Positions 5,387 to 44,671 of a DNA stretch of 64,000 nucleotides are shown here, piece after piece. The position numbers and the translations under genes are program-made. The notes beneath the pieces were generated by a model, which was given only the letters and a program-made list of their open reading frames with translations, had not been told where the DNA came from and did no database searches. The DNA lies in NCBI GenBank assembly GCA_014238415.1, contig JABABA010000004.1, forward strand, positions 124,001 to 188,000, in the 5' to 3' direction. Origin of the DNA: Planctomycetota bacterium. Its GTDB lineage: Bacteria; Planctomycetota; UBA1135; GCA-002686595. The first letter of the stretch is position 1. Each line of letters begins with the position of its first letter.

Positions 5387-5818
5387 CTAGAAGTCATTTG
5401 ATGCTGGTCCGCGGTACTCGGCAGAGTCGGCCTCGGTTTCGTAGACGCGTACCAGGTCAAGGGCTGCGCCCAGTTCGTCCTGGCGATTCGCGAGCTTCTT
5501 CCAAATTGCAATTGCCAGGGTCTCAGCGGAGATCACAGTGTCCTTCAGCCAGGGAATCTCGTCGAGCAGTTGGTGATCCAGTTGCTCAAAGATCTCTTCC
5601 TTCATGACGCGCATCAGGTCCACCAGATTTGCCACCATGCCGGTCTCCGGGTCAAGGGGGCCCCTCAGACTTGCTTCTACCCTGTAGTTGTGCCCATGGA
5701 TCCGGTTGCAGGGCCCGAAGATCTCCAGGTTGCGTTCGGGACTCAGTCTTGAATTGTTCATGCGGTGGGCAGCAGAGAATTGCACACCGTGGGTGATGGT
5801 CAGGATGGGGTGGTCCAT
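5387..5818 (-). CDS. queD: 6-pyruvoyl-tetrahydropterin synthase / 6-carboxytetrahydropterin synthase family (QueD-like)
   Basis: This 143-residue protein belongs to the PTPS/QueD family, which converts dihydroneopterin triphosphate to 6-carboxytetrahydropterin for queuosine or to pyruvoyl-tetrahydropterin. The zinc ligands are visible as His18 (SAAH) and His41/His43 (IHGHNY), with the catalytic cysteine at Cys37 (GPCNRIHGH). SAETLA and a C-terminal VYETE, which holds the pterin-anchoring Glu, complete the pattern. There are no other queuosine genes next to it, so QueD versus a PTPS of other function cannot be settled here. It converges on the EF-hand gene with a 6-nt gap. Confidence 0.87.
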   Translation of the reverse strand: MDHPILTITHGVQFSAAHRMNNSRLSPERNLEIFGPCNRIHGHNYRVEASLRGPLDPETGMVANLVDLMRVMKEEIFEQLDHQLLDEIPWLKDTVISAETLAIAIWKKLANRQDELGAALDLVRVYETEADSAEYRGPASNDF

Positions 5819-5953
5819 GGAGAGAGGGTACTCAGAAGGCCACCCTCGGGGCTTTCTGCTCTCCAGTTGGAGAAGTGTATATCTGGGAAAATTCTCCCTT
5901 CGGTTGGGCCCTGTGAAATCGCTACTAGGGTAGCCCCAAGGAGGAGGGTAGAT

Positions 5954-6313
5954 ATGAGACAGACCTACAATGAAGCCACCGCAACACGCCTGATTCCGCT
6001 GCTTTCCGGCATCGCCACTGAATACATCGATCGGGCCAGATCTATCCGCCGCCTTGAGCGTCGACTGGAGTCACAGCGGGCTTCGGACGAAGAGCAGGCC
6101 GGCATCCTTGAAACTACCGCTCAACTTTCCCTTGAGCGGCGCGGGCAGCGCCACTGCTGCGAAGAGGTCGAGCACCTTGGCTGTGAACTCGAAGCTGGCC
6201 GTACTGTCTCGGTTCTCATTCCTGCAGTTGGTGGCAAGCATACCCTGCCCTGGCGCTGGCGCTTTGGAGACCGTTCTCTGCGCCAAACCCAACAAGTGGT
6301 GCCTGCAGCCTGA
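5954..6313 (+). CDS. small hypothetical protein, possibly DUF2203-like
   Basis: A 119-residue soluble protein with a strong purine-rich ribosome-binding site (AAGGAGGAGG, about 5938-5947) ahead of the ATG at 5954. The N-terminal half is helical (NEATATRLIPLLSGI, then a charged helix to about residue 65). The C-terminal half is short strands with HTLPWRWRFGDRSL. The pattern of a leading helix ending in a Leu-rich segment, then a Gly-rich strand and a Trp-containing motif, loosely resembles DUF2203 proteins, but the resemblance is weak and I would not name a function. It is convergent with the dehydrogenase gene downstream, with a shared hairpin terminator between them. Confidence 0.6.
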   Translation: MRQTYNEATATRLIPLLSGIATEYIDRARSIRRLERRLESQRASDEEQAGILETTAQLSLERRGQRHCCEEVEHLGCELEAGRTVSVLIPAVGGKHTLPWRWRFGDRSLRQTQQVVPAA

Positions 6314-6358
6314 GTCCATCACTTGACCGCTACACTTTTCCTGTAATGGGAAAGGAAG

Positions 6359-6391
6359 CCGGGCCGCCCCCTGAAACAGGGGGCGGCCCGG
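6359..6391. terminator. bidirectional hairpin terminator
   Basis: A perfect 15-bp GC-rich stem (6359-6373 with 6377-6391) closes on a 3-nt AAA loop. It is followed on the plus strand by TGTATTTTG. It sits between convergent genes ending at 6313 (plus) and 6419 (minus), as expected for a shared terminator. Confidence 0.85.
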
Positions 6392-6418
6392 TGTATTTTG
6401 CTCACATTGTTCAGCCAG

Positions 6419-7111
6419 TCATGGACGCACTTTGATGTCCTTCGGGCACTCGTTCTCTTGGGCAGCTTTCCAGACAACCTCTGCCACTGTTTCTGGTGAG
6501 TCCATTGTGCTGCGATCCAAGTCAAGGTCAACTCCATCAAAGAGAGTCGTGTCTGTTGCGTCGGGGTACACGGTTGTGACACGAATGCCTTCATCGCATA
6601 ATTCTTCGCGCAGGGCATCCGAGAATCCTCGCAAGGCATACTTCGTGGCGCAGTAAACCGAGCTGCCGGGGTAGCCCTGAAGTCCTGCGGTTGAGCTGAT
6701 ATTGATCACGTGTGCGCCGTCTGCTTCTCGCAGCGCTACCAATGCTTCCTGGGTTGTGTACATGGCTCCCAGGATGTTGACATCGAAGAACTTCTGAACC
6801 ATGCCAGGGTCGCATTCCTCAAACGGCTTGACATCAAAGACCCCAGCGTTGTTGATCAGCAGGTCCATCTGGCCCTCAAAGAAATCAACAGCGCGGTAGA
6901 CAGCGGCTTCGATTGAGCCATGATCTCGCAAGTTGAATTGGGCGGCAATTGCCTCTCCTCCTGCGGCTTCAATCTCCTCTACGACCTTGTCGAGTTCGTC
7001 CGAGGTTCGGGATGCAACGCAGATCTTGACGCCGCTGGTGGCAAAACGCAGGGCGATCGCGCGGCCGATGCCGCGGCCGCCTCCAGTAATCAGGATTCGT
7101 GTGGGGGCCAT
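6419..7111 (-). CDS. short-chain dehydrogenase/reductase (SDR) family oxidoreductase
   Basis: A classical SDR of 230 residues with an NAD(P)-binding Rossmann fold. The cofactor motif TGGGRGIG is at residues 9-16, NNAG in the middle of the chain, a catalytic serine in ISSTAG, and the catalytic YxxxK as YCATK. An Arg at the end of beta-2 (ASRT) suggests NADP preference, which is an inference. The substrate is unknown; related proteins are often annotated as 3-oxoacyl reductase-like. It is divergent from the membrane protein gene at 7237 across a 125-bp gap that should hold both promoters. Confidence 0.9.
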   Translation of the reverse strand: MAPTRILITGGGRGIGRAIALRFATSGVKICVASRTSDELDKVVEEIEAAGGEAIAAQFNLRDHGSIEAAVYRAVDFFEGQMDLLINNAGVFDVKPFEECDPGMVQKFFDVNILGAMYTTQEALVALREADGAHVINISSTAGLQGYPGSSVYCATKYALRGFSDALREELCDEGIRVTTVYPDATDTTLFDGVDLDLDRSTMDSPETVAEVVWKAAQENECPKDIKVRP

Positions 7112-29691: not shown

Positions 29692-30140
29692 TGGGCCAGA
29701 AGGCGGGGGAGGGGCTCCTGGCTCCTCTGGCATGGTGATTCACCAGAATGGTCTGGGGGGCTTCCTGGTGGGTCAGGGTCCATTCGGAGCTGTTGTTCTC
29801 GGTCCGGAATGTCCAGGGCAAAAGTAGGGTATACACCTAGCTGAATAAGTATTTTTTCTGTTCGTTCGGTATCTCGCCGCCTCTGGCTCAGTATGGTGCA
29901 CAGAGAAACCATGGCCCCCACATGGATCTTGAAGCGCAATGCCTAGCCTGCCACAAATCATCCCCCCTGGACCCTCTCGCAGGGGGTCTGCCAGCCAGAA
30001 GGCCGCGAATCGGCCTGGCATTGCCGTATGTGGGGCTCAGGGCAGCAAGACGGACACCTGACCAGAGAATCTTTGTGGGGTTCTTGGAACCAGAGGCCAG
30101 ATGCCCCCACTAACCAACCTTAGAGAGAGGGAAATTGGAA
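29692..30140. other. intergenic region upstream of the sigma factor gene
   Basis: About 450 bp with no credible gene. A locally AT-rich patch around 29825-29875 (with a TATAC and a run of six T) could hold a promoter for the sigma factor. A purine-rich AGAGAGAGG at 30122-30130 precedes the ATG at 30141 and is a fair ribosome-binding site. No terminator is evident after the acyl-CoA dehydrogenase. Confidence 0.35.
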
Positions 30141-31289
30141 ATGAACAGCAAGAACACAATCAGCCTTGAGGACCTGGATACCAAGCTCGACGCTTGGGCA
30201 GATGAGCCTCAGAAATTCGAAGGGCGCGTGAAGCGCCTGGCCAGCAAGTGGAATCGAGAGGGTACCTCCTTCGAACTCAAGGATCCCAACAGTTGGAGGG
30301 CCCCTCGCCGGCCAGCCAACGGTGTGGTCACCATCGAGGATCAGCTGCGAGCCGAGATAGATTCGATCATCATCATGGGGCGTGACGAGGAAGCCAGACA
30401 CGCCCGCCGGATTGAGTTCGTTCGGACCTGCCTGGAGCTGAGCCTCAAAGAGCATGGGCTCCAAATGAGTGATCTGGAGGGCCGCGTCAATTATCACCCA
30501 CAGACCTTCCGGGATCTTGACCCCACAGAATGTGAGTTGCCTCGGGATGTCTTCATTCGTTGGAAGGAACTCCATGGCCTGCGCACAGAACTGGTGGAAC
30601 GCAACCTGTATCTGGCCCTGATCAACGTTGAGCGGTATGCGCACTTTGGTGTGCCTCGCCTGGATCTGGTCCAGGATGGTTCCGCGGCTCTCTTTCGCGC
30701 AGTAGATGGTTTCGACTGGCGTCGTGGTCTGCTCTTTCGTACCTATGCGGTGCACTGGTTGAATCAGGCCTTCCGCAGTCACCTCTATAACCACGGCCAG
30801 ACCGTGCGTATCCCTGTCTACTTGCAAAAAGCCATGCGACATGTGAAGGCAGCAATGGGCAAGCTCGGGAACACCAGTTCCTCGGCCGCAGCAATCGCAG
30901 ACTTGACGGGTATGCGATTGGGCCTCGTGGAGAGTGCTTTGACCGCAAGCCGTTCAACTTTGTCCATTGATGCCTCGTCCGGTGACGAAGGGGATGGTCC
31001 GGGGCTTGCGGATAGTTTGAGCGATGAGCAGACCGAGGGTCTCTATCAACCATCAATGGAGGATGTGACCCTTCGGGAGGGGCTAGGTGAGGCTCTTGAT
31101 CTGCTTTCCGAGCGCGAGCGCCTGGTGCTGGAGCGCCGGTATGGTCTCGGTGCCTTCGATGAGCACACCTTGTCAGAGTTGGCCGGGGAATTGGGTGTCA
31201 GCCTTGAGCGAGTGCGTCAGATCCAGATGCGAGCGCTCGGTAAGTTGCGCACTCCCGCCCTGCGCAAGACGGTCGATCCGTTCATCTGA
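30141..31289 (+). CDS. divergent sigma-70 family RNA polymerase sigma factor
   Basis: A 382-residue group-2/3-type sigma-70 factor. Region 2 is recognisable (LVERNLYLALINVERYAHFG, then LDLVQDGSAALFRAVDGFDW and FRTYAVHWLNQAF), as are region 3 (IADLTGMRLGLVESAL) and region 4 with the helix-turn-helix LSELAGELGVSLERVRQIQM. Housekeeping factors have FSTYATWWIRQAI where this one has FRTYAVHWLNQAF, so -10 recognition and melting residues differ. The N-terminal 100 residues are acidic and unlike region 1.1 or 1.2 of RpoD. The ATG at 30141 has a purine-rich leader; an in-frame TTG at 30135 adds two residues. It heads the strand that carries the cytochrome cluster. Confidence 0.88.
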   Translation: MNSKNTISLEDLDTKLDAWADEPQKFEGRVKRLASKWNREGTSFELKDPNSWRAPRRPANGVVTIEDQLRAEIDSIIIMGRDEEARHARRIEFVRTCLELSLKEHGLQMSDLEGRVNYHPQTFRDLDPTECELPRDVFIRWKELHGLRTELVERNLYLALINVERYAHFGVPRLDLVQDGSAALFRAVDGFDWRRGLLFRTYAVHWLNQAFRSHLYNHGQTVRIPVYLQKAMRHVKAAMGKLGNTSSSAAAIADLTGMRLGLVESALTASRSTLSIDASSGDEGDGPGLADSLSDEQTEGLYQPSMEDVTLREGLGEALDLLSERERLVLERRYGLGAFDEHTLSELAGELGVSLERVRQIQMRALGKLRTPALRKTVDPFI

Positions 31290-31390: not shown

Positions 31391-32503
31391 ATGGAGAACT
31401 CCAGGGTGCACGTCGAGCCATTTCATGAAGCAGTGAGTGGGGCTCAGCAGTCTTCAGTCCAAGATCCAAGCACGAAGGCCAGGCCTGCCCGTGCCTTGGC
31501 TCACGGATCCCTGCGCACCACCTTCATGGATCTGGTCGGGCGGCCGCCTTATGAGAGCGAATACGAACGGTGGCTTGGCTTGGGCAGGGACAAGCTGTTG
31601 GATGCCCTGTTGGGGAGCGAGGAGTTCTGGGGGCATTGGTGGAGCGAGCAGCTCTACTACTTTCTGCTGGTGGACAACTTTCAGCCCATAGCGCGAGCTA
31701 CGAAGGAAATTCCTGACAAGCTGGCGGTGGGGCGCATGGACTACCGAACCGCTTTGCACCGCATTGCTCTGACATCGAGCTTTGACCAGCGCAACCCTGG
31801 CTCAGATACCTTTGTCACCGTTGTCATGGAGCAGTTCTGCGGCCTGGTGGTTCAGAAGAATCGGCGGGATCTGGAGAGTGGCAAGCGCGCCTATGATGGG
31901 GGCAAGGGCAACTTTCTAGGCACCATCGTCAACAATCAAGCCGAAGTGATCGAGGTATGCGTCAACCACTCCAAGGCTTCCAAGCACTTCTTGGCGCGTG
32001 AGTACCAGCGTCTAGTGCACGCCCCGGGGGACAAGAAGACTCTCGCCAATCAAGCCCGTCGCCTGCATCGGGATCCTTGGAAGTATCTGGCCACGGCCAG
32101 GGACTGGCTGCTTTCGGAGGAATACAGCCAGCGCCTCGAGAGGCTTGAGCCCAAGTCCAACTCCTTGTTCCTGAACGGCCTCTTTGTGGATCTGCTCGAT
32201 CGCCTGCCTACGGAGGAGGAGCTTGACCCCATGCGCACAGCCCTTGATGCTCTGGCCGACCCCCGCCCTCTGCGCTCGGTGGTGGTGCGTCTGCTGTTGG
32301 ATTCTGGGCGCGCCAAGATTCCTGAGAAGGACACGATTACAGACCCCACACGTTGGATCGGAGATAAGTACCAGCGTCTTCTCGGCCGTGAGGCCACAGG
32401 GGAGGAGCTACGGGTTTTTGTGGGCATCTTTCATCAACCGGACTGTCGTCCAGCGACAATCCTGTACGCTCTACTGTCCCATCCCGAATATCAGAACTAC
32501 TAG
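31391..32503 (+). CDS. DUF1549/DUF4214-like repeat protein, short and without signal peptide
   Basis: A 370-residue protein containing three units of the same kind: FMDLVGRPPYESEYERW...LLDALLGSEEFW (about 45-85), FVDLLDRLPTEEELDPM...VVRLLLDSG (about 262-305) and YQRLLGREATGEEL...YALLSHPEYQNY (about 325-370). The pattern, an LLxRxPTxxE helix pair followed by a helix ending in an LLxSxEY motif, recalls planctomycete DUF1549/DUF1553 proteins and phycobilisome-linker-like DUF4214 domains. Typical DUF1549-DUF1553 proteins are exported and 700-1000 residues long; this one has no signal peptide, and an in-frame TGA at 31385 excludes a longer N terminus. DUF1549 proteins are usually paired with DUF1501 proteins, as here. 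Confidence 0.65.
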   Translation: MENSRVHVEPFHEAVSGAQQSSVQDPSTKARPARALAHGSLRTTFMDLVGRPPYESEYERWLGLGRDKLLDALLGSEEFWGHWWSEQLYYFLLVDNFQPIARATKEIPDKLAVGRMDYRTALHRIALTSSFDQRNPGSDTFVTVVMEQFCGLVVQKNRRDLESGKRAYDGGKGNFLGTIVNNQAEVIEVCVNHSKASKHFLAREYQRLVHAPGDKKTLANQARRLHRDPWKYLATARDWLLSEEYSQRLERLEPKSNSLFLNGLFVDLLDRLPTEEELDPMRTALDALADPRPLRSVVVRLLLDSGRAKIPEKDTITDPTRWIGDKYQRLLGREATGEELRVFVGIFHQPDCRPATILYALLSHPEYQNY

Positions 32504-32543: not shown

Positions 32544-33692
32544 ATGGAACAATTCAACTTTGATCGCCGTTCCTTGATACGAGGCGCCGCATTGGGTGCT
32601 GCGGGGGCACTCTCGCCGGGGCTGGCCAGCAGTTTCTCCTTGCCCCTGCAGAAGGGCCGCAAGACGAAGCGGGTGGTGTTGGTTGCCTTTGCAGGAGGTG
32701 TACGCACACGCGAGACATTTGGCACACCAGACAACATTCCAAACATGCGCCAACTGGCGGATGAGGGGGTGCTCTACACCAATGTGGCCACGGCCAACCT
32801 TGGTCACTTCGGTGCGACCATGTCGATATTCACTGGCGTCAGCGAGCCACGGGGCATTCGTGAGAATGCACGAGGTCAGGAACCAACCCTCTTTGAGTAC
32901 CTGCGCAAGGGACTCGCCATGCCCAAGGAGGACATTTGGGTCACGACAACCGGCGGCGCACAGCAGGTGAATTATTCCTATTCTCTGCACCCTGAGTACG
33001 GCGCCAAGTACGGCGCGAACATCTTGGATGGCGAGGGGATTTTCAATACGGAGTTCAAGCAACTGCTCGACACCTGGGGTATGCCGGAATCCATGGGCGA
33101 AAGGGAAAAGGCCTTGCTTGATCAACTTCGCAAGGGCGTAGGCGGTGGACCCGATGCGGTTCGCGAGGCCGAGCGTCTTGCGCGGGTGGAGGAGTACATC
33201 CTGAAGGAACTGACTCAGGGCACTTCCGATATCACGGGAACGGCTGCTGGAGATCGCAAGGCCTTGCGCTTGGCGCGCAATCTCTTGTCCCTCTTCCGAC
33301 CCAAGGTAGTGGGTGTAGTGTTGCAGAACGCTGATGTGGCTCACGGGTCCTACAACGCTTACTCAGAGGTGGTGCGCCAGAACGACGCGGCCATCGGCGA
33401 ACTGGTCATGGCGATTCGCGAGGACGAGGAGCTAGCTGAGTCCACTGCTGTTATCGTGATGCCGGAGTTCGGACGTGATCGGGACCTGAATTCACGACGC
33501 GGTTTGGATCATGGTGATGGATCGCCGGACCTGCGCCGGGTGACTTGCCTCGCTTGGGGTCCTGACTTCAAGCGCGGCGTGGAGATTGATTCTGAGCAGC
33601 GCACTACTGATGTGGTGGGCACGGTTTGCGAGTTGTTTGGAACCACCGCCCCCCTTGCCCGTGGTGGCCGATTGACAGGCCTTTATTCCTGA
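32544..33692 (+). CDS. Tat-exported alkaline-phosphatase-superfamily protein (DUF1501-like)
   Basis: A 382-residue protein with a twin-arginine signal (FDRRSLIRGAALGAAG, residues 6-21), so it is exported folded. The body has the alkaline phosphatase/sulfatase fold pattern: an initial strand with VVLVAFAGGVRT, MRQLADEGVLYTNVATANLGH, SIFTGVSEPRG, and late metal-site strands ending in VIVMPEFGRDRDLNSRRG and LDHGDG. The EFGR and DHG motifs are those of DUF1501 proteins. A sulfatase CxPxR motif is absent. It lies 40 nt after the DUF1549-like gene and 4 nt before the ten-haem gene, suggesting one operon. Confidence 0.8.
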   Translation: MEQFNFDRRSLIRGAALGAAGALSPGLASSFSLPLQKGRKTKRVVLVAFAGGVRTRETFGTPDNIPNMRQLADEGVLYTNVATANLGHFGATMSIFTGVSEPRGIRENARGQEPTLFEYLRKGLAMPKEDIWVTTTGGAQQVNYSYSLHPEYGAKYGANILDGEGIFNTEFKQLLDTWGMPESMGEREKALLDQLRKGVGGGPDAVREAERLARVEEYILKELTQGTSDITGTAAGDRKALRLARNLLSLFRPKVVGVVLQNADVAHGSYNAYSEVVRQNDAAIGELVMAIREDEELAESTAVIVMPEFGRDRDLNSRRGLDHGDGSPDLRRVTCLAWGPDFKRGVEIDSEQRTTDVVGTVCELFGTTAPLARGGRLTGLYS

Positions 33693-33696
33693 TCGC

Positions 33697-36600
33697 GTGG
33701 ACTCTGACCAGCCTCTCAAGCCTGTTCGCGCACGGTTGCGCTGGGGATGGTGGTCCATGTTGCCCATGGCCCTTGCCCTGCCATTTTTGGTGGAGGGAGT
33801 TCCCGCGGGTTCGGCCTTCCAGGATTCAGGTGGGAGCATTCAAATGGACATCGAGCCCCACCCGGTACCCACCCAGCCGGCAGCGGGAGGAGAGGGTTCG
33901 GACGGTTGCTTGCATTGTCATCAAGGCGTGGAGGACATGCACCCCTGGCTTGCTCTCTCATGTGTTGAGTGTCACGGGGGAGATCCCACCACCCACAACA
34001 AGCTCAAGGCCCATGTACCCAACATCTCCAACAGGGACACGGACGAGCGCGTGGCCCCCCTCGCCAAGGACTTGGCCTGGCGGCGCTTCAAGAACCCAGC
34101 TGACCTGAGGGTGATTGATGTGACCTGTGGTACCTGCCATGAGGAGGCCTGTAAGGACCTGCTCCTTTCATTGCACGGCACTACTGCCGGGCACCTGTCA
34201 GATGGCTTTTACGAGATCGGCCAGATCCCGAAGAAGGGTTCGCTCTACGGCGTCTTTCCCGTGCCGGGGCACTTGACCGATGAAGGTGATGTGGACCGTT
34301 TGATTCAGCCGCCCGCCTTTTCTGCCGCGGACGATGAGACGCGCCTGTCCAGTCACTTCCCTGATCTGATTCGCAAGGAGTGCATGCAGTGCCATTTGTG
34401 GTCGCCGGGCCGAGGCTTGCGGGGCCGAACAGGTTTCGATGGGGATTATCGTGGTGAAGGTTGTGCCGCCTGTCATGTGCCCTACGCCTCAACCGGTTTG
34501 TCTGACACGGCGGATCGCTCGATTTCAAAGACTGAACCGGGTCATCCTCGTAGGCATGTAATGACTTCCGCACCCAGCACCCAGACATGTGTCAGTTGTC
34601 ACTATGGGGATGCGTCCATCGGGCTGCACTTTCGGGGACTGTCCCAATTGCCTCCCAACAGCGCGGGCGGCCCGGATATCGAAGGCACAACGAATGTGCT
34701 ACTGAATCGTACCTTCTATGTGAACGACAATCTCTTGACGCCGCCCGATGTGCATCACGAGTTTGGTATGCACTGCGTGGATTGTCATGGGCGCGGGGAT
34801 GTAATGGGAGACGGTGCCCTGCACGGGAGCATGGAGCATGCGGTGGCGATCTCCTGTGAATCCTGTCACGGTACGTTCGATGCTCGCGCCAGCATGACCA
34901 CCGCTCGCGGCGAGACGCTCGACAATGTTTGGCGAGATGGAAGTCAGCTGTTGTTGAAGAGCAAAGTCACAGGCAAGACCCACCGAATCAAAGAGGTCAT
35001 AGATGTGCTCGATCCGAACCATCCCGATCACATTCCCGCTGCAGTTGCTGCCATGAACAGCAATCACGGAAGTCTTGAGTGCTACGCCTGCCATGCGGGC
35101 TGGAACGTGAACTTCCTGGGCTTTCATTTCTATCGCAATGAGAGCCTGACTCAGATGGACTTGATCACCGGGCGCCGCACCAAGGGCCGGGTGACCACCC
35201 AGGAAAAAGTATTCACGACCTGGAAGTCCTTCTACGCAGGACTGAACGAGAAGGGCCGTATCGCGCCATACTTGACAGGTTTCTCCACCATGGGCACGGT
35301 GGATGGGGAGGACGGGACCCGTATTCTGGACCAGGCCATGCCAGAGACCGCTGCGGGTTTGTCGGGCATGACCATGATCCACCATCAGATGCACACCACC
35401 CGGCCCACGGCTCGCGAGTGCGTGGAGTGTCATCGTTCCGGGGGTACCTGGGGTCTGGGTACTTCGAACTTCCGCTTGGGCCGCCAGATCGCTTTTGTGG
35501 CGGACCGGCGGGGAATCGAGGCGGTGGCACTCAATCGACAGAACATGGCCGGCTCAATTCCCTTGGGCAAGTTTGTCCTGCCGGATGTGGTGGACCTGGA
35601 GTTGGACTGCGACCCCTTGCAGGGCTACGGCAAGATCCTCTATGCCAGCGAAGGTGGGCGGGGCATACATGTATTTGATGTGGCCGATCCACGCGCCTTC
35701 AATCGGCTGGCGTTTATCGAGACGATTTCTCCTCGGGGCATGGCCAAAGCCGGGGACTATCTGTACATCGCAGATGGTATCGGGGGCCTGCGTGTGGTCG
35801 ATGTGAGTGTTCCTGCCAAGCCCAAGGTTGTGGGACAGTTGCCGTTCTTCGATGCACAGGAGGTTGAGGTCCGTTGGCCTTACGCTTATCTGGCGGATGG
35901 GATTGGTGGTCTTGCAATTGTCGATATCCGCGATCCGATTCGACCGCGTTTGGTCAGTGGCCTTGGTTGGGCAGTGGGCGCAGACCAGAAAATGGCGGCT
36001 ATCGATCTGGATTTGGTGTTTCAGTACAGTCGGCCGGCCGTCTTGCACGGGGATGTGCCAGCCCCCTACCGCACTGATGCGCGCAATTTGTGCGCTGTGG
36101 TGGACGAGAATGCGGGCTTGATTTTGATCGATGTAACCGAGCCCAGCCACCCAAAAGTGGTCTATCCCAATCCCAGTCGCCAAACGCGCGCGAGTCGTCG
36201 GCCTGGAATCCTTTATCGGGGTCTTGCACTGCGTACCAAGGTTGATCCAGCGCCGCCCTTGGGTGGCAAGCGATCAGCGGAGACCGATTATGTCTACCTG
36301 CTGGAGGAGCGCACCCAGGGCAATGGCGATCAGGTCTCTACCGTGCGCGCGATTGACGTTGCCAATCCTAAGCGCCCGCGCGTGATTGATTCTCTTCGCG
36401 TTGAAGGCTCCTCCGAGTCGCTGATGCACCTTTCGATCTACAACCAGCCTTTCCTGCAGCCTCTGGCCTTGGTGGCCGGTGATGAGGGTGTCAGTCTGGT
36501 GGACCTGACCAATTCGGAGAGCCTGGAGTCCGGTGGTGTCTTGATGAGCATCCGTAACGCCTACGCCATCGCGGTGGAGGAGTTCCCCCTGGACGCCATG

Positions 36601-37674
36601 ATCGATCCTTCCGGCCGCCGTCTCAAGGATGTGAGTCACGAGGGTTCCCGTTGGTTGTTGCCGAGGGAAGTAGCGAATATTCTCGATGTACCGGGTGAGT
36701 TGTTGGGAACGATCAAGAAAGACGAACCTCCCCTGGCGATTCCCGGCCACAGCGCACGCTCGTTCTTCATTCGGTACGACGAGAGTCGCGATGGTCTTCT
36801 GACCGGAGCCGAACTCGCCAAGGCTGGGAGTGTTCTCGATCGTAATGGGGATGGTCGCGTAACCCTGGCAGAAGCCGCGCTTGTGGGTCAACTGTTTGAG
36901 AAGCCAAGGACCGCGGCGGCCGAGCCAGAGCAGGTTGTCTTTGGCGAGGAGCGTACGGATCCCGACGGCGATCTTGCGCGCTTGCTCGACGGTCATGATG
37001 GCCGTGTTCATGATCGGGACCGGGACGGCCGTCTTGATCGCAGGGAGATGTCACGGGCACTCTTCGCGGCTTTGGACCTGAACGGCGATGAACGCCTGAA
37101 CCGCGGCGAGCTCTCCCGGCACCCGGGTCGCGCCCGGCAGATTCGTTACGGGGACGAAGGTGCCCTTGAGGACTTCAGCAAGCGCGACCTGAACAAGGGC
37201 GGCACCATTGCAATTCGGGAGTTCAAGATTCTCGACCCTGAATGGAAGGCACTCGATCGGGACTCAGATGGAGGAGTGCAACTGCCAACCCTGCGCAAGG
37301 ACCGTGGACGCGGAAATGGAGTCTTGCCTCTGCCATCCGAGTGGCCCGTGCGCAGGAATCTGGCGGTTCCCTTGCCGCCCTTTCTGGAGGATGGCGCCTT
37401 GGCGGCTTTCGACAAAAATGGCGACACGGATCTATCGCGGCGTGAGTTGCGTGACCGGGAGGACCTGCTGGAGCTTGCCGATCAGGACTACTCGGGCCTG
37501 CTTGAGAGCAATGAGTGGATGCGCCTGGAAGCAATCGCCAGGGGCGGCAATCTCGACTCCCTGTCCGACAGCTTCTTGGAGCGCTGGGACTTGGATGGCA
37601 GCGGTGAGGTTGAGGAGCATGAGCTGCCAGCCTTCGCCCGCCCCGTTCTGCGTCAGCGACGCCCTAATCGCTAG
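33697..37674 (+). CDS. decahaem cytochrome c fused to an LVIVD-type beta-propeller and EF-hand array
   Basis: A 1325-residue exported protein starting with GTG at 33697. A hydrophobic segment (about 20-40) serves as signal peptide or anchor. Ten CxxCH haem c sites lie at residues 71, 89, 144, 229, 256, 298, 360, 387, 462 and 575. Residues 645-960 contain LVIVD-like repeats (GIHVFDVADP, GLRVVDVSVP, GLAIVDIRDP, LILIDVTEP, GVSLVDLTNS) that should form a beta-propeller. From about 1028 to the end there are some nine EF-hand-like loops (starting at 1028, 1048, 1106, 1127, 1164, 1187, 1239, 1262 and 1298). The combination suggests a calcium-dependent periplasmic or cell-surface electron-transfer protein. 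Redox partner and substrate are unknown. Confidence 0.9.
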   Translation: MDSDQPLKPVRARLRWGWWSMLPMALALPFLVEGVPAGSAFQDSGGSIQMDIEPHPVPTQPAAGGEGSDGCLHCHQGVEDMHPWLALSCVECHGGDPTTHNKLKAHVPNISNRDTDERVAPLAKDLAWRRFKNPADLRVIDVTCGTCHEEACKDLLLSLHGTTAGHLSDGFYEIGQIPKKGSLYGVFPVPGHLTDEGDVDRLIQPPAFSAADDETRLSSHFPDLIRKECMQCHLWSPGRGLRGRTGFDGDYRGEGCAACHVPYASTGLSDTADRSISKTEPGHPRRHVMTSAPSTQTCVSCHYGDASIGLHFRGLSQLPPNSAGGPDIEGTTNVLLNRTFYVNDNLLTPPDVHHEFGMHCVDCHGRGDVMGDGALHGSMEHAVAISCESCHGTFDARASMTTARGETLDNVWRDGSQLLLKSKVTGKTHRIKEVIDVLDPNHPDHIPAAVAAMNSNHGSLECYACHAGWNVNFLGFHFYRNESLTQMDLITGRRTKGRVTTQEKVFTTWKSFYAGLNEKGRIAPYLTGFSTMGTVDGEDGTRILDQAMPETAAGLSGMTMIHHQMHTTRPTARECVECHRSGGTWGLGTSNFRLGRQIAFVADRRGIEAVALNRQNMAGSIPLGKFVLPDVVDLELDCDPLQGYGKILYASEGGRGIHVFDVADPRAFNRLAFIETISPRGMAKAGDYLYIADGIGGLRVVDVSVPAKPKVVGQLPFFDAQEVEVRWPYAYLADGIGGLAIVDIRDPIRPRLVSGLGWAVGADQKMAAIDLDLVFQYSRPAVLHGDVPAPYRTDARNLCAVVDENAGLILIDVTEPSHPKVVYPNPSRQTRASRRPGILYRGLALRTKVDPAPPLGGKRSAETDYVYLLEERTQGNGDQVSTVRAIDVANPKRPRVIDSLRVEGSSESLMHLSIYNQPFLQPLALVAGDEGVSLVDLTNSESLESGGVLMSIRNAYAIAVEEFPLDAMIDPSGRRLKDVSHEGSRWLLPREVANILDVPGELLGTIKKDEPPLAIPGHSARSFFIRYDESRDGLLTGAELAKAGSVLDRNGDGRVTLAEAALVGQLFEKPRTAAAEPEQVVFGEERTDPDGDLARLLDGHDGRVHDRDRDGRLDRREMSRALFAALDLNGDERLNRGELSRHPGRARQIRYGDEGALEDFSKRDLNKGGTIAIREFKILDPEWKALDRDSDGGVQLPTLRKDRGRGNGVLPLPSEWPVRRNLAVPLPPFLEDGALAAFDKNGDTDLSRRELRDREDLLELADQDYSGLLESNEWMRLEAIARGGNLDSLSDSFLERWDLDGSGEVEEHELPAFARPVLRQRRPNR

Positions 37675-37695: not shown

Positions 37696-37711
37696 AGCCC
37701 CATTTGTGGGG
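37696..37711 (+). terminator. small hairpin after the decahaem gene (possible terminator)
   Basis: A GCCCC/GGGGC stem with a 6-nt loop (37696-37711) lies 22 nt after the stop and is followed by ATTTCT. A second small CCCC/GGGG hairpin lies at 37743-37754. Both are weak and the T-run is poor, so termination here is uncertain. They separate the cytochrome cluster from lipA. Confidence 0.35.
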
Positions 37712-37792
37712 CATTTCTGCCTTCTGGCCCAGAGAATTGTCACCCCTTTTGGGGCCTGGGATCGCGCCTGTGATAACCTCCGCGGCTGCCCC

Positions 37793-38725
37793 ATGGACCT
37801 CAAGATCCCTCCCATCGATCCGACCGCTCTGGGCGGCCGCAAACCCGGTTGGCTCAAGGTGCCTCTGCCGGGGGGTGAGGGCTACACGCGCTTGCGTCGG
37901 CTGACCCGTGAACTCAAGCTTAATACGGTTTGCGAGGAGGCCCACTGTCCCAACATCGGTGAGTGTTGGAAGGGCGAGCGGGCAACCATGACGCTGATGG
38001 TTTTGGGGGACGAGTGCACTCGAAGGTGCCGGTTTTGCGCGGTCAAGACAGTTGAACGCGCTTCGGCTCCGGACCCAGCTGAGCCCGAACATGTGGGGCG
38101 CGCTGTGGCAGCCCTTGATCTTGACTATGTGGTCATCACCAGCGTGGATCGGGACGACCTGGAGGATGGTGGGGCAGGGCACTACGCCAACTGCGTTCGT
38201 TCGATCCGTAGTCATTCAGCGCAAACGATTGTAGAGACCCTGATTCCTGACTACACCGGTTCCATGCTCAAGACCTTGATGCAATCGGAGCCCGATGTGC
38301 TGGCCCACAATGTGGAGGTGGTGCCGCGCTTGCAGCGCCGCATCCGGGATCCTCGCTGCTCCTTTGAGAGGTCATTGGATACCTTGCGCGAGGCTCGCGT
38401 GCTCTCATCGCGTGTATTCACCAAGTCTTCATTGATGCTCGGATTGGGCGAAACCGAGGCTGAGGTGGAGGAGGCCATGGGGCTCCTCCGGGCCGCAGAG
38501 GTGGACTTTCTGACCCTTGGCCAGTATCTGCGTCCCTCACCTCAACATGCTCCGGTGCGTGAGTATGTCACACCCGAGCGCTTTGATGCCTACGACCGCC
38601 TGGGAAGGGCAATGGGATTCCGTCAAGTTGCTTCTGGGCCCTTGGTGCGCTCCAGTTACAAGGCGGGCGAACTCCAAGCCGCTTACCTTGTGCGCGAGCG
38701 GCGTAAGGAGGAACATTCAATATGA
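37793..38725 (+). CDS. lipA: lipoyl synthase LipA
   Basis: LipA inserts sulfur at C6 and C8 of octanoyl groups on lipoyl domains. Both iron-sulfur clusters are visible: the auxiliary cluster cysteines Cys47, Cys52 and Cys58 (CEEAHCPNIGEC) and the radical-SAM CxxxCxxC at Cys75, Cys79 and Cys82 (CTRRCRFC). The terminal RSSYKAGE motif, whose Ser binds the auxiliary cluster, is present. At 310 residues it is of normal length. I used the ATG at 37793; the frame runs further upstream without family similarity. The stop overlaps the E1alpha start by 4 nt, tying lipoate synthesis to its target complex. Confidence 0.97.
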   Translation: MDLKIPPIDPTALGGRKPGWLKVPLPGGEGYTRLRRLTRELKLNTVCEEAHCPNIGECWKGERATMTLMVLGDECTRRCRFCAVKTVERASAPDPAEPEHVGRAVAALDLDYVVITSVDRDDLEDGGAGHYANCVRSIRSHSAQTIVETLIPDYTGSMLKTLMQSEPDVLAHNVEVVPRLQRRIRDPRCSFERSLDTLREARVLSSRVFTKSSLMLGLGETEAEVEEAMGLLRAAEVDFLTLGQYLRPSPQHAPVREYVTPERFDAYDRLGRAMGFRQVASGPLVRSSYKAGELQAAYLVRERRKEEHSI

Positions 38726-39834
38726 CCGAAATGCTGACCATGTTCAAAGCCGATGGATCTGCTCCAGACTTCAACGGCGCCCTGGATGAGAAGGCATTGA
38801 TCCATTGCTATCGCACCATGCTGATGGTGCGTGCCTTTGATGACATCTGCATGAAACTGCAGCGCTCGGGCAGGATTGGTTTTTCGATCCCTAACAAGGG
38901 TGTCGAGGCCACCCAGGTAGGGGCTGCAAGTGCCCTACGCGCGACGGACTTTTTCTTTCCAAGCTACCGGGACTTCGGCATGGCATTGCACCATGGTGCC
39001 AAGCCTGTCGACATGATGCACAACATGTTCGGCAACGCTTCTGACTCGGCCCGCGGCCGACAGATGTCAGTTCACTTTTCGTTTATCGAACCTCTTCGTT
39101 TCTTTTCGATCAGTTCTCCCATAGGCACGCACTTGCCCCATGCTGTGGGCGCGGCCTATGCTGCTCAGGCCTTGGGCAAAGACGATGTGAGCTTGGCTAG
39201 CTTCGGCGATGGAGGCACATCGAGCGCTGGATTCCACAGTGCCTTGAATCTGGCAGGTGTTTGGAAGGCGCCGGTGATCTTCCTGTGTCAGAACAATGGG
39301 TGGGCGATTTCGTTGCCCGCCAGCGGTCAAACTGCCTCCGATGGCTATGCAATCAAGGCCAAGGCCTATGGCATGCCCGGCGTCACGGTGGATGGCAATG
39401 ATCTACTCGCAGTCAATCAGGCGGTGGGCGATGCTGCAAAGCGTGCGCGTGGAGGTGAGGGCCCTACCCTGATCGAGGCTTATACCTACCGCATGGGTGG
39501 GCACTCTACTTCGGATGATCCCACCAAGTATGTGCCCGCCGAGGAACTCGAAGAGTGGGCAAAGAAAGATCCTGTGTTGCGCATGCAGCGTTTCCTGGAC
39601 AAGAGCGGTCTGTGGGACGAGACACTGGAGGAGAAGCTGCTGGCAGAGTGTGCTGATGAAGTTGCCCAGGCTGCCAAGGTTGCCGAGGCGACTCCTGGTC
39701 CTACCCTTGAGACGATCTTCAGCGATGTGTACGAGACCCTTCCCTTACACCTGCGCCGTCAGGGTGAGCAGGCCTTCGAATTGGCCGAGAGAAAAGGCGG
39801 CGCCGACGCTGGAGGCGGTGCTTTTCCACTTTGA
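38722..39834 (+). CDS. pdhA: 2-oxoacid dehydrogenase E1 component, alpha subunit (first copy)
   Basis: The alpha subunit of a heterotetrameric ThDP-dependent E1 that decarboxylates a 2-oxoacid (pyruvate or a branched-chain oxoacid). The ThDP/Mg motif is complete: GDG at 162-164 and NN at 191-192 (CQNNGWAIS). PSYRDFG near residue 80 and YRMGGHSTSDD in the phosphorylation-loop region are family features, and the chain ends GGGAFPL. At 370 residues it has normal length. Overall the sequence leans towards branched-chain or thermophilic pyruvate E1alpha types, so substrate is unsettled. It overlaps lipA by 4 nt and is followed by E1beta. Confidence 0.92.
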   Translation: MTEMLTMFKADGSAPDFNGALDEKALIHCYRTMLMVRAFDDICMKLQRSGRIGFSIPNKGVEATQVGAASALRATDFFFPSYRDFGMALHHGAKPVDMMHNMFGNASDSARGRQMSVHFSFIEPLRFFSISSPIGTHLPHAVGAAYAAQALGKDDVSLASFGDGGTSSAGFHSALNLAGVWKAPVIFLCQNNGWAISLPASGQTASDGYAIKAKAYGMPGVTVDGNDLLAVNQAVGDAAKRARGGEGPTLIEAYTYRMGGHSTSDDPTKYVPAEELEEWAKKDPVLRMQRFLDKSGLWDETLEEKLLAECADEVAQAAKVAEATPGPTLETIFSDVYETLPLHLRRQGEQAFELAERKGGADAGGGAFPL

Positions 39835-39875
39835 TTCTGCAACGCCCCCCGATTCACCAAGCAAGAACAGACACC

Positions 39876-40850
39876 ATGACAACACTTACTTTGCTCCAGG
39901 CGGTAAACGACGCGCTGCACACAAAGATGCGCGAGGACGAGCGCGTGACTGTTTTTGGCGAGGATGTGGGTCCCAAGGGCGGCGTCTTCCTAGCCACCGA
40001 GGGCCTGACCCAGGAGTTCGGCAAGCAACGCTGCTTTGACACGCCCCTTTCCGAAGATGGCATCGTTGGGGCAGCGGTAGGCATGGCGGTCAACGGCCTG
40101 CTGCCCGTGTGTGAAATACAGTTCCAGGACTTCATCTTCCCCGCTTTTGACCAGATTGTCAGCGAAGCGGCCAAGTTGCGTTATCGCTCCGGCGGTCAGT
40201 ACACCGCTCCCATGGTAATCCGTGCGCCCTACGGCGGCGGTATCCGAGGGGGGCTGTACCACAGCCAATCCGGCGAGGCCTACTTTGCGCATACTCCCGG
40301 TTTGAAGGTCGTGATCCCTTCCACGCCACACGATGCCAAGGGACTTTTGATAGCCGCCATTGAAGATCCCGATCCTGTACTTTTTTTGGAACCCAAGGCC
40401 CTCTATCGCTCAGTCAAGGGCGAAGTACCCGAGGGAAGTTACAGCGTTGATCTGTCAACAGTGCGTACTGTGCGCGAAGGTTCAGATGTGACGGTTTTCT
40501 GCTACGGAGCAATGGTGCCTGTTTGCGAGAAGGCCGCCGCCAAGGCTGCTGAAGGTGGCATAGAGTCGCATGTGATCGACCTACGCACGTTGCTTCCTCT
40601 CGACGAGGAAGCTGTCCTGGATGCGGCCAGGAGTACTGGGCGCGTTGTGGTGGTACATGAGGCTCCCCGTTTTTGCGGTTATGGCGCTGAAATCAGCGCC
40701 TTGATTGCTGAGAATGCAATCGAGTACATGGAAGCCCCTGTCAGGCGTGTCACAGGATTCGACACTCCCTTTCCGAACACTCTTGAGCACCATTACATGC
40801 CGGACGAGCGTCGGGTCCTCGATGCGATTGAAGGTGTGGCCTCTTTTTGA
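39876..40850 (+). CDS. pdhB: 2-oxoacid dehydrogenase E1 component, beta subunit
   Basis: The 324-residue E1beta subunit supplies the glutamate that activates ThDP and part of the active-site channel. Family motifs are TVFGEDVGPKGGVF, the FDTPLSEDGIVGAAVGMA block with the catalytic Glu, EIQFQDFIFPAFDQI, and a C-terminal domain with IDLRTLLPLDEEAV and VVVHEAPRFCG. The ATG at 39876 gives the conserved start MTTLTLLQAVNDAL. It is the only beta subunit in the operon although there are two alpha subunits, so both may compete for it. Confidence 0.94.
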   Translation: MTTLTLLQAVNDALHTKMREDERVTVFGEDVGPKGGVFLATEGLTQEFGKQRCFDTPLSEDGIVGAAVGMAVNGLLPVCEIQFQDFIFPAFDQIVSEAAKLRYRSGGQYTAPMVIRAPYGGGIRGGLYHSQSGEAYFAHTPGLKVVIPSTPHDAKGLLIAAIEDPDPVLFLEPKALYRSVKGEVPEGSYSVDLSTVRTVREGSDVTVFCYGAMVPVCEKAAAKAAEGGIESHVIDLRTLLPLDEEAVLDAARSTGRVVVVHEAPRFCGYGAEISALIAENAIEYMEAPVRRVTGFDTPFPNTLEHHYMPDERRVLDAIEGVASF

Positions 40851-40870
40851 CCCCAGCAAGTTATCCAACC

Positions 40871-42136
40871 ATGATTGAATTCAAATTGCCGGATATCGGC
40901 GAAGGCACTGCGGAGGGCGAGATCGTCAAGTGGCTCGTTTCTGCTGGTGAAGCGGTCAAGGAGCACCAGGCAGTTGTCGAGGTGATGACTGACAAGGCCA
41001 CGGTCGAGGTGCCCGCTCCTGCAGATGGCACAATTACCAAGTTGCTTGCTGGGGAAGGTGACGTTGTGCCCGTGGGCGATGTCATTTTTCATCTTGACAG
41101 TGCTGGTGGTGGAGCGCCTGTTGCGGAATCGGAACCACCTGCTACGATCGCACATGAGCCTGCGCCAGCAGCTGCTCCCGTTCTGGTTGCAACAGCTACC
41201 ACCAGTGTTGCAACAGCTACCACCAGCAAGGTCCTGGCGGTTCCGAGCGCCCGTCGCGTGGCCAGGGAACTTGGCGTGGACCTTGAGACTGTCGCCGGCA
41301 GTGGTCGCAACGGAGTCATCCGTCGCGCCGATGTGGAGGCCAGTGCCGCGGGTCCAGGTGTCGTATCCGCAGCGCCCAGGCCTGCGGCCACCTCTGAACA
41401 GCGGATTCCATTCCGCGGGGTGCGTCGCAAGGTTGCCGAAGCCATGACGCGTTCCGCCCAGACCGCAGTGCACTTCACCATCGTGGAAGAAGTGGATGTG
41501 ACTGAGTTGGTGCGAGTACGACAAAAGGCCAAGGCGCTTGGTGCTCAACAGAACATCAAGGTTACGTTCATGCCCTTCATCATGAAGGCCGTGGCTGGCG
41601 GCCTGATGAAATTCCCCATGCTCAACGGGCACCTTGATGAGGATGCCGGAGAGATCGTGTTGCCCGGCACCGTGAATCTGGGCATTGCCACCGACACTCC
41701 CAATGGCCTGCTCGTGCCTGTGATTTCTGGCGTAGAGTCCAAAGGCTTGCTGCAGTTGGCGGCCGAACTTGGTGATCTGGCTGATCGCACACGCAAGGGG
41801 CAGGTGCGCCCGGATGAACTGCGTGGCAGCACGTTTTCGATCACTAACGCGGGCAACATCGGTGGAACTCTTGCAACACCGATTATCAACTTCCCAGACA
41901 TCGCGATCCTAGGTGTACATCGCATTGTCAGGCGACCAGGGGTGGTGGATACGCCCGATGGTGAGGTTATTGAAGTGCGCCAGTACATGAACTTCTCCTG
42001 CAGCGTGGATCATCGACTAGCCGATGGGGCCGACGCGGCCCGATTTGTGGCACACCTGCGCGAAACCCTGGAGGAGCCAGGTCTGCTGACCCTGTTGCTT
42101 GCTCTCAAAATCGATTCGATGGAATCTCTTGCTTAG
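40871..42136 (+). CDS. pdhC: 2-oxoacid dehydrogenase E2 (dihydrolipoyl acyltransferase)
   Basis: A 421-residue E2 core protein that transfers the acyl group from lipoate to CoA. It has one lipoyl domain (residues 1-77) with the lipoylated Lys42 in MTDKATVE, an Ala/Thr/Pro-rich flexible linker, a peripheral subunit-binding domain (about 122-157, VPSARRVARELGVD, with GRNGVIRRADVE) and the catalytic domain ending with the HxxxDG motif in SVDHRLADGADA. TFSITNAGNIGG is also typical. The linker contains a 21-bp tandem duplication. The substrate could be pyruvate or branched-chain oxoacids. The second E1alpha gene begins 4 nt after the stop. Confidence 0.95.
   Translation: MIEFKLPDIGEGTAEGEIVKWLVSAGEAVKEHQAVVEVMTDKATVEVPAPADGTITKLLAGEGDVVPVGDVIFHLDSAGGGAPVAESEPPATIAHEPAPAAAPVLVATATTSVATATTSKVLAVPSARRVARELGVDLETVAGSGRNGVIRRADVEASAAGPGVVSAAPRPAATSEQRIPFRGVRRKVAEAMTRSAQTAVHFTIVEEVDVTELVRVRQKAKALGAQQNIKVTFMPFIMKAVAGGLMKFPMLNGHLDEDAGEIVLPGTVNLGIATDTPNGLLVPVISGVESKGLLQLAAELGDLADRTRKGQVRPDELRGSTFSITNAGNIGGTLATPIINFPDIAILGVHRIVRRPGVVDTPDGEVIEVRQYMNFSCSVDHRLADGADAARFVAHLRETLEEPGLLTLLLALKIDSMESLA
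41186..41227 (+). repeat. 21-bp direct tandem duplication in the E2 linker
   Basis: Two 21-bp copies (41186-41206 and 41207-41227) differ only at the last base and encode VATATTS twice in the flexible linker between the lipoyl and subunit-binding domains. The duplication keeps frame and simply lengthens the swinging arm. Confidence 0.95.
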
Positions 42137-42140
42137 TTGC

Positions 42141-43250
42141 GTGGCTGAGCTTCAACAGATCTTGGATGAGAGCGGAGCCCTTGTGGGAGAGGTCCCTGAC
42201 TTGTCTGATGAGCGTCTCAGGGAATTGTTCCAGCACATGCTCATGATTCGCTCCTTGGACGGGCGCATGTTGAAACTGCAGCGTGCTGGCCGAGTGGGCT
42301 TTGTGGGCACCGCTACAGGTTTGGAAGCGTCGTTGGTTGGTGCGGCTGCACCTCTCTTGCCCCAGGACTGGATGTGGTCCGGGTTGCGGGAAGGTGGTGC
42401 CGCCATCACCCGTGGACTGCCCATGTCAGAGTATGTGGCTCAGATGTACTGCAATTCGAATGACACCGCCAAGGGCCGGCAGATGTGCAATCACTTTCAG
42501 CACAAGGAGTCGAACTACCCTAGCTGGTCTTCGGTGATAGGTACCCAGATCACTCATGGAGTCGGGGCCGCCTACGCCAGCGCTCGGCGCGGGGATGACG
42601 CGGTGCACTCGATCCACTTTGGCGACGGTGCCAGCAGCTCCAACGGGTTTCATTCGGGTATGAACCTCGCTGGTGTTTGGAAGGCACCTTGCGTTTTTGT
42701 CTGTATCGACAATGGTTGGGCGATTTCGGTCAAGTCATCTGACCAAACTGCCGCCGAATCCTACTCGGACAAGGCCGAAGCCTATGGCATGTCCGGGGTG
42801 ACTGTGGACGGTAACGATGTACTTGCGGTGTATGTCGAAATGAAGACTGCGGTCGAGCGGGCTCGCGCAAAGGGTGGCCCGAGCTTGGTTGTGCTCAAGA
42901 CCTATCGTATGTTGGGACACTCAAGTTCCGATGATCCGAGCAAGTACCGAGAAGACGAGGAGGTCGAGGCCTGGGCCCAGTGTGATCCCCTGGACCGCTA
43001 CGAGTCCTTCCTGATAGCCCGGGGGCTGATCGATGCCAACGGGCGCTCGGCCCAAGAGGAGGCGATCTTGGCAGAGATAGATGAGGTGATCCACGAACAA
43101 GAAGCCGCCCCTCCTTTCCCTTTGCGATCTTTGGTGGAGGATGTCTATAGCGAGGTGCCCCGTCACCTGCGTCTCCAGTTCAATCAATTCCTAGAAGTCG
43201 CTGAACGCCGCGGGGATGCGACCCCCGGCGATGGTGCCTTTCCCCTTTGA
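42141..43250 (+). CDS. 2-oxoacid dehydrogenase E1 component, alpha subunit (second, divergent copy)
   Basis: A second E1alpha, about 369 residues, starting with GTG at 42141 just 4 nt after the E2 stop; an in-frame TTG at 42099 overlaps E2. It shares the core of the first copy (GFHSGMNLAGVWKAP, NGWAIS, YRMLGHSSSDD, ending GDGAFPL) but differs in the ThDP motif, which is GDG...DN rather than NN. The metal-binding second Asn is kept, so it should be active. The substrate-entry segment is WSGLREGGAAITRG instead of PSYRDFGMALHHG. This suggests a different oxoacid preference or a regulatory role. No second beta gene accompanies it. Confidence 0.9.
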   Translation: MAELQQILDESGALVGEVPDLSDERLRELFQHMLMIRSLDGRMLKLQRAGRVGFVGTATGLEASLVGAAAPLLPQDWMWSGLREGGAAITRGLPMSEYVAQMYCNSNDTAKGRQMCNHFQHKESNYPSWSSVIGTQITHGVGAAYASARRGDDAVHSIHFGDGASSSNGFHSGMNLAGVWKAPCVFVCIDNGWAISVKSSDQTAAESYSDKAEAYGMSGVTVDGNDVLAVYVEMKTAVERARAKGGPSLVVLKTYRMLGHSSSDDPSKYREDEEVEAWAQCDPLDRYESFLIARGLIDANGRSAQEEAILAEIDEVIHEQEAAPPFPLRSLVEDVYSEVPRHLRLQFNQFLEVAERRGDATPGDGAFPL

Positions 43251-43270
43251 GAGAGAATTCCCCCTTCCCC

Positions 43271-44671
43271 ATGAATCAGAGCCGCAAGGTCGTTGTAATC
43301 GGTGCCGGACCCGCAGGCTACGTCTGCGCGATCCGCCTCGCCCAATTGGGCCAGCAGGTAGTCGTTGTGGAGAAGGAAGCCCTGGGCGGGACCTGCCTGA
43401 ATGTGGGTTGCATTCCCTCCAAGGCCATGATCGCCGCGGGTTCGTTGATGGAAAAGGTCAGCCAGGCTCACAGCATGGGCATCACCATCGAAGGCATGCA
43501 ACTCGATCCCGCCAAGCTGGTGGATTGGAAGAATGCGATAGTTGGGCGTTTGACCGGAGGGGTGGGGGCCTTGCTCAAAAAACACGGTTGCCAGGTGATC
43601 ACGGGCACGGCGCGCCTACTAGACAAGAACACGGTGGAGGTCACTACCAAGCAGGGTGCCGAGAAAGTGTCCTGTGACGACATTGTGATCGCTACTGGTT
43701 CGGTGCCTATTGAGATCCCGGGTTTCGCTTTTGACGAGGACGCGGTCTGGTCTTCCACCGGTGCCCTTTCTCCTACAACGGTTCCCAATCATCTAGTGGT
43801 GATCGGTGGGGGCTATATCGGGCTTGAGATGGGCATGATGTATCACCATCTGGGTTCCCAGGTAACCGTGCTGGAGGCTACCGGTGGTGCATTGCCGGGC
43901 CAGGACCGGGACTGCGTCAAAGTCATCGAGCGTTCCCTCAAGAAGAAGAAGATCAATTTGCTGGTCAATACATTTGCCAAACAGTGGAGCAGGTCCGGCG
44001 ATGGTTTGGTGGTCACGATAGAGAAGAATGGAAAGACCGAAGAGATCTTGTGTGATCAGATCCTGTCCACCGTGGGTCGGCGCCCTTACAGCGAGGGGCT
44101 TGGCCTCGAGAACGTGGGCCTCGCCACCAACGAGAGCGGATTCATCCAGATCGACAAGCAAATGCGAACCAGCGTGCCCAATATCTACTGCGTGGGCGAC
44201 ACCGCTGGTCAACCCATGCTGGCCCACAAGGGCAGCAAGGAGGGATTGGTGGCGGCAGGTGTGATCGCTGGAAAGCCCGAGGAGTACGACGTGCGTTGCG
44301 TGCCTGCTGTAATCTTCACTGCTCCGGAAATGGCATCCGTAGGACTGACCGAGGATCAGGCCCGCGAGGCGGGCTACGAGCCCGTCACAGGCTCCTTCCC
44401 TTTCAAAGCCTCAGGCAGGGCCATGACCCTGCAGGATACCGAGGGCATGGTCAAGGTCGTCTCCGACGCCAAATCTGACCTTGTCCTGGGTGTACACATG
44501 GTTGGCCCGGAAGTCACAGAACTCATTGCTGAGGCAGCTTTGGCCATCGAAATGGGAGCCACCAGCGAAGACCTTGCGCGTACGATTCACGCCCACCCGA
44601 CCTTGCCGGAAGCTCTAATGGAAGCCGCTGAAGCCGTGCATAACATGGCCGTACACATCTACCAGCCCTGA
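43271..44671 (+). CDS. lpdA: dihydrolipoyl dehydrogenase (E3)
   Basis: The flavoprotein that reoxidises dihydrolipoamide with NAD. It has an N-terminal FAD motif GAGPAGYVCA (residues 11-20), the redox-active disulfide Cys42/Cys47 in GGTCLNVGCIPS, the NAD-binding GGGYIGLEMG, the second FAD motif YCVGDTAG, and the catalytic His-Glu pair in the C-terminal AHPTLPEALME. At 466 residues it has normal length. I used the ATG at 43271, just before the FAD-binding strand. It completes the E1-E2-E3 set of the operon and precedes lipB by 4 nt. Confidence 0.97.
   Translation: MNQSRKVVVIGAGPAGYVCAIRLAQLGQQVVVVEKEALGGTCLNVGCIPSKAMIAAGSLMEKVSQAHSMGITIEGMQLDPAKLVDWKNAIVGRLTGGVGALLKKHGCQVITGTARLLDKNTVEVTTKQGAEKVSCDDIVIATGSVPIEIPGFAFDEDAVWSSTGALSPTTVPNHLVVIGGGYIGLEMGMMYHHLGSQVTVLEATGGALPGQDRDCVKVIERSLKKKKINLLVNTFAKQWSRSGDGLVVTIEKNGKTEEILCDQILSTVGRRPYSEGLGLENVGLATNESGFIQIDKQMRTSVPNIYCVGDTAGQPMLAHKGSKEGLVAAGVIAGKPEEYDVRCVPAVIFTAPEMASVGLTEDQAREAGYEPVTGSFPFKASGRAMTLQDTEGMVKVVSDAKSDLVLGVHMVGPEVTELIAEAALAIEMGATSEDLARTIHAHPTLPEALMEAAEAVHNMAVHIYQP

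Follow-up and report, generated by a model that had tools for sequence, protein, structure and literature searches.

The window, a 64,000-nucleotide stretch of DNA from a 3.74 Mb draft genome of 84 contigs, contains an open reading frame on the + strand (33697..37674) that starts with GTG and encodes an exported decahaem cytochrome of 1325 residues with an LVIVD propeller and EF-hands. Reading of the sequence gave a probable Sec signal peptide (RARLRWGWWSMLPMALALPFLVEGVPAGSA; 33697..33830, +, approximate boundary), and no lipobox cysteine was seen in the N-terminus. Next comes a decahaem domain that is homologous to ExtM by its match to NF040943 (residues 71-579; 33907..35433, +). Three genes form a conserved trio in which this gene comes last. 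The first is a gene for a 370-residue DUF1549/DUF1800-like protein with a DUF4214/phycobilisome-linker-like C-terminus (31391..32503, +), which is followed after 40 bases by a gene for a Tat-exported, DUF1501-like protein of 382 residues from the alkaline phosphatase/sulfatase superfamily (32544..33692, +), and 4 bases separate the latter from the cytochrome gene. A sigma-70-family factor of 384 residues (30135..31289, +) is encoded further upstream and is perhaps just a neighbor. The lipoyl synthase gene, lipA (37706..38725, +), begins 31 bases 3' of the cytochrome gene. Positions 37706-44671 of the window hold lipA and a full 2-oxoacid dehydrogenase gene set, with two genes resembling E1 alpha.

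The 10 CxxCH motifs start at residues 71, 89, 144, 229, 256, 298, 360, 387, 462, and 575. Shuffling the protein 20,000 times gave a mean of 0.0125 such motifs and a maximum of two. The first-pass annotation had described 10 CxxCH motifs, an LVIVD propeller, and EF-hands in a single chain of this length, and this observation was confirmed by the open reading frame, the motif counts, LVIVD and EF-hand matches above the Pfam cut-offs, and EF loops far above the number found in shuffled sequence. Since the source is a draft assembly, an assembly chimera or a chance set of motifs was considered. This explanation is refuted by the orthologues and has next to no probability left. Dozens of independent assemblies share this architecture, among them the complete chromosome CP036434.1 of 'Planctomycetes bacterium Poly30' (locus L048). 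Orthologues on other genomes and contigs also keep the haem spacing (18-55-85-27-42-62-27-75-113) nearly unchanged, which argues against an assembly fusion, and full-length orthologues in most genomes of the family argue against both fusion and chance.

Of the named records, the nearest are metagenome assemblies of Planctomycetota, with 95-96% identity over the whole protein. In a set of 61 relatives, all six members sampled from the genus had a full-length or nearly full-length match, as did many genera of the family. A scan of GTDB contigs gave 202 related loci, from which the best 80 were kept. Among 392 Planctomycetota genomes drawn from across the phylum, 54 from scattered families had a match at E 1e-60 or better. 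A PHROGs search gave no match. In the literature searched, which left subscription journals mostly outside, we found no description of an LVIVD repeat or EF-hand fused to a multihaem cytochrome, and nothing on LVIVD with a multihaem cytochrome or on a multihaem protein with EF-hands in Planctomycetes. The family is real and widely conserved, and it appears to be undescribed.

The propeller occupies approximately residues 593-964 (35473..36588, +). Its match to the Pfam LVIVD model PF08309 had an E-value of 1e-17 and 63.6 bits, compared to a cut-off of 20.2. LVIVD motifs were located at residues 656, 697, 738, 807, and 931, in agreement with the five or more repeats proposed before, and two degenerate copies were recognized by eye near 605 and 885. 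An AlphaFold2 model of residues 62-1003, made with 65 sequences, was confident over the haem and propeller parts (pLDDT 87.5, pTM 0.88) and placed approximately 30 strands between residues 593 and 964. Together with the seven motif positions, this number of strands fits seven blades. Among the 50 matches listed by a fold search with the haem and propeller model, most were propellers and WD40-like proteins. One match was 7bid, a designed seven-bladed propeller, with a TM-score of 0.69 on the target. No multihaem cytochrome was among those 50. The repeats thus belong to the LVIVD type by both the Pfam gathering score and the propeller fold.

The tail of the protein (residues 1028-1309; 36778..37623, +) is lineage-specific and contains nine EF-hand loops. 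Eight are canonical 12-residue loops, starting at residues 1028, 1048, 1106, 1127, 1164, 1239, 1262, and 1298, and the ninth, at 1187, is without a Glu at position 12. These numbers agree with the approximately nine EF-hands counted earlier. Shuffled tails had a mean of 0.04 canonical loops and a maximum of two. At positions 1, 3, and 12, eight of the nine putative calcium-binding loops carry the canonical residues. Pfam EF-hand_1 matched with 49.1 bits against a cut-off of 25.4 (E 2e-13). The tail model had a pLDDT of 79.8 and a pTM of 0.60, and its 50 listed fold matches were calmodulin, calcineurin B, NCS-1, and other apparent EF-hand proteins or constructs, at weak E-values between 3e-3 and 1.3e-2. 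An EF-hand assignment is the best reading of the loops, given this model and its helix-loop-helix fold matches in addition to the Pfam gathering score. The first-pass annotation had allowed that the repeats might not form a propeller and the loops might not be EF-hands, and the models and fold matches did not bear this out.

It had also proposed that electron transfer is tuned by calcium, and this part was not supported. The EF-hand tail was present in 43 and absent from 20 of the 63 scored members of the tree. Homologues without it end just past the propeller and keep the haem and propeller core, and many of them also keep the same operon with its upstream genes. Therefore, calcium tuning is not indicated, and the architecture is layered, with the haem domain and propeller as the core and the EF-hand tail as an accessory. 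Presence of the tail was strongly clustered on the tree and needed two changes. A tail that stabilizes the structure or anchors it would be a more economical reading than calcium tuning. These results also bear on whether the protein is mainly an adhesive or structural surface protein that depends on calcium, with the haem part being secondary. EF-hand arrays occur in surface proteins too. LVIVD repeats were first described from cell-surface proteins (PMC2447325). However, the core persists in homologues that are without the EF-hand tail, and conservation within the protein is highest in the haem domain, with a mean column identity of 67% compared to 45% for the tail in alignment A4. We consider a mainly structural role quite improbable.

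The haem domain is related to a known cytochrome. NF040943 (ExtM) matched residues 68-398 with an E-value of 5.2e-57 and 193.5 bits, and a profile search of the genome covered ExtM positions 19-306 and 336-511 of 599. ExtM is the 12-haem cytochrome of the Geobacter extHIJKLMNOPQS cluster (PMC5877670). The equivalog cut-off of NF040943 is 800 bits and our score is far below it, so the protein is a relative of ExtM with a homologous multihaem core and not ExtM itself. It also has 10 motifs and one relic in place of 12 haems, with a propeller and an EF-hand tail added, and the ext partners are not adjacent. Beside the cytochrome gene we saw none of the porin, Rieske, and cytochrome b genes that belong to the ext cluster, so there is no indication of an outer-membrane conduit. 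In Geobacter, selenite and tellurite reduction falls when the porin gene extI is lost, a phenotype shown for ExtI (PMC5877670). We found no activity of purified ExtM in the ext-cluster literature searched.

Other known systems were compared as well. An outer-membrane cytochrome of the MtrC/OmcA type was rejected since PF22113 scored 23.3 bits, short of the cut-off of 30, and no lipobox was seen. NrfA and the octahaem nitrite reductases gave a short, weak profile match around HxxxGxxCxDCH and were also rejected, given that all the motifs are CxxCH, without the lysine-ligated CxxCK haem. Hydrazine synthase and its homologues combine haem domains with six- and seven-bladed propellers, and some homologues of its beta-gamma subunit carry eight N-terminal haem motifs (PMC12758564). 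The combination of haem and propeller is in common with our protein, a likeness drawn from the published description alone. The host genome encodes at least one other multihaem protein (L149, G000:C13:59770), of 789 residues with eight CxxCH motifs and a repeat-rich C-terminal half.

Closer relatives were found within Planctomycetota. Three sister proteins from the same order (L156, L157, and L158, the last with one altered motif) carry 11 haem motifs and LVIVD repeats with the same spacing plus an extra motif at +11. They keep CxGCH at the place where the cytochrome here has FxGFH, and they have neither an EF-hand tail nor a DUF1501 orthologue in their genomes. The third haem motif of L158 is unusual, CGKSSDGWTGSCH (Cx10CH). 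In a second subfamily of approximately 1400 residues (L112 6480-10934, L113 5397-9602, and L114 5234-9379), LVIVD-like repeats are fused to an ExtM-like haem domain without the EF-hand tail, and in L114 the third haem motif is CGTTGCH (Cx4CH). Open reading frames with 23, 17, and 17 CxxCH motifs (L111 11166-13481, L112 2789-5059, and L113 738-3173; family f1) were seen close to ExtM-like cytochromes.

At one place, two haem motifs lie 11 residues apart in the relatives with 11 or 12 haems, for example CYACHTSWIPNCYGCH. The cytochrome family of the window has CYACHAGWNVNFLGFH there, and in our protein one motif of the pair is replaced by FLGFH at residues 473-477 (35113..35127, +). F473, G475, F476, H477, and R480 are identical in all 65 aligned members, and the relatives examined keep CxGCH at the corresponding site. 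The rows with FxGFH form one clade with an SH-aLRT support of 100; some outgroup branches are long and the deeper order is unsure. Relatives taken into this tree had to carry the motif pair, and the CxGCH comparisons made elsewhere had no such requirement. The simplest reading of the aligned sequences is that one of 11 ancestral haem sites was lost once with its histidine kept, because CxGCH in the relatives stands against an invariant FxGFH in a single clade.

Histidines outside the motifs changed too. In a 65-row alignment of cytochrome homologues, 11 non-motif histidines were invariant. Two histidines, H160 and H563, are invariant solely in the FxGFH clade, and those at 341 and 378, conserved in the three nearest 11-haem sisters, are not kept in it. 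This pattern reads as a remodelling of the haem chain. A possible explanation for the kept H477 is that the site still holds a haem, non-covalent and of the b type, which H477 would ligate to give a wire of 11 cofactors with mixed c- and b-haems. The motif's proximal His is invariant and its cysteines became Phe, a residue often found in the walls of haem pockets. This is improbable in our judgment since the histidines at 341 and 378 were not kept and the model places the FxGFH stretch in beta strands.

Linkage of the cytochrome to its neighbors was counted by tblastn over loci with enough sequence. This replaced a greedy clustering of neighboring open reading frames, which was confounded by long antisense frames in the GC-rich DNA. 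The DUF1501 gene was upstream in 71 of 72 loci, the 370-residue gene in 62 of 68, and the sigma factor in 28 of 63, and lipA was downstream in 36 of 69. A twin-arginine start is conserved in the DUF1501-like protein, which is remotely similar to sulfatases and phosphodiesterases. Its orthologue was found in 31 of the 61 relatives, and all 31 had the core cytochrome, with only remnants in one genome (G007). These co-occurrences are not independent events since the genomes are related. The other 30 relatives, including the three with an 11-haem sister protein, had no DUF1501 orthologue. In the 28-member family of the 370-residue protein, 25 matched PSCyt2 and seven matched DUF1800. The cytochrome in G007 (L159, G007:C602, about 5814-6901) is reduced to pieces that match residues 45-103 and 1064-1314 and contain stop codons. 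They adjoin intact sigma factor, 370-residue, and DUF1501 genes, and decay, deletion, or an assembly fault could account for them. A 358-residue open frame with 13 CxxCH motifs lies near the module in each of L056 and L106.

The clade with the haem site change coincides with the partner genes. It is possible, though we rate it somewhat doubtful, that this lineage turned the ancestral c-haem site CxGCH into a pocket with invariant FxGFH roughly when it joined the DUF1549-DUF1501 pair. If so, the FxGFH pocket would be a site for a substrate, a partner, or a b-haem. Another explanation is that the protein is a catalytic oxidoreductase in which haem loss opened a pocket next to a neighboring haem, H477 and R480 bind a small substrate that is converted there, and the DUF1501 protein supplies or processes it. 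The five identical residues of the site, a change that fits one event at the base of a clade shared with the partner genes, and the clade-specific H160 and H563 are all consistent with catalysis, as is the weak similarity to NrfA and eight-haem nitrite reductase. However, haem motifs in common would be expected to give as much similarity, and there is no catalytic motif of the CxxCK type. We regard such an enzyme as unlikely, with roughly the chance of one in a few.

What the sequence and models do give is a predicted ExtM-type chain with 10 c-haem sites, a propeller of approximately seven blades, an EF-hand array, and strict linkage to DUF1501 and DUF1549/DUF1800-like genes. We propose as the most likely reading, at about even odds, that the protein serves in exported electron transfer as the redox subunit of a three-protein module at the surface or in the periplasm. 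The haems would relay electrons between the respiratory pool and a partner or substrate beyond the cytoplasmic membrane, and the propeller may be the docking face for the two partner proteins. The vacated eleventh site, with its invariant His and Arg, could be the exit or a pocket for a substrate or partner. The EF-hand tail would be loaded with calcium at environmental concentrations and would stiffen or anchor the protein and not act as a switch. For the direction of electron flow, analogy with ExtM would favor outward reduction. The host genome has a match to ResB of cytochrome c maturation system II, one NrfD-type subunit, and one COX1-type oxidase, making c-haem assembly and a respiratory chain plausible. 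The first-pass annotation had likewise inferred an extracytoplasmic multihaem electron-transfer protein, which the Sec-type N-terminus, the ExtM homology, and the invariant haem motifs support; its propeller and EF-hands held, and its calcium tuning did not. It had not noted that the haem domain is related to ExtM, that two partner genes are linked to the cytochrome gene, or that an eleventh haem site was converted.

Each part of the protein is already known, and the partner linkage and the converted haem site are the parts worth following. These findings define a family of exported multihaem proteins that is widespread in Planctomycetota and apparently undescribed. They also bring a large architecture into the ExtM group, discussed in the literature searched for Geobacter and cable bacteria. 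The apparent single conversion of a haem c site with its histidine kept brings the pruning of multihaem wires within reach of experiment. Also, the uncharacterized DUF1501 and DUF1549/DUF1800-like proteins are connected with a redox partner by strict linkage, in a module that is testable. If the lineage did convert its haem site on joining this pair, the module would give two large uncharacterized families of Planctomycetota their first concrete role in redox chemistry.
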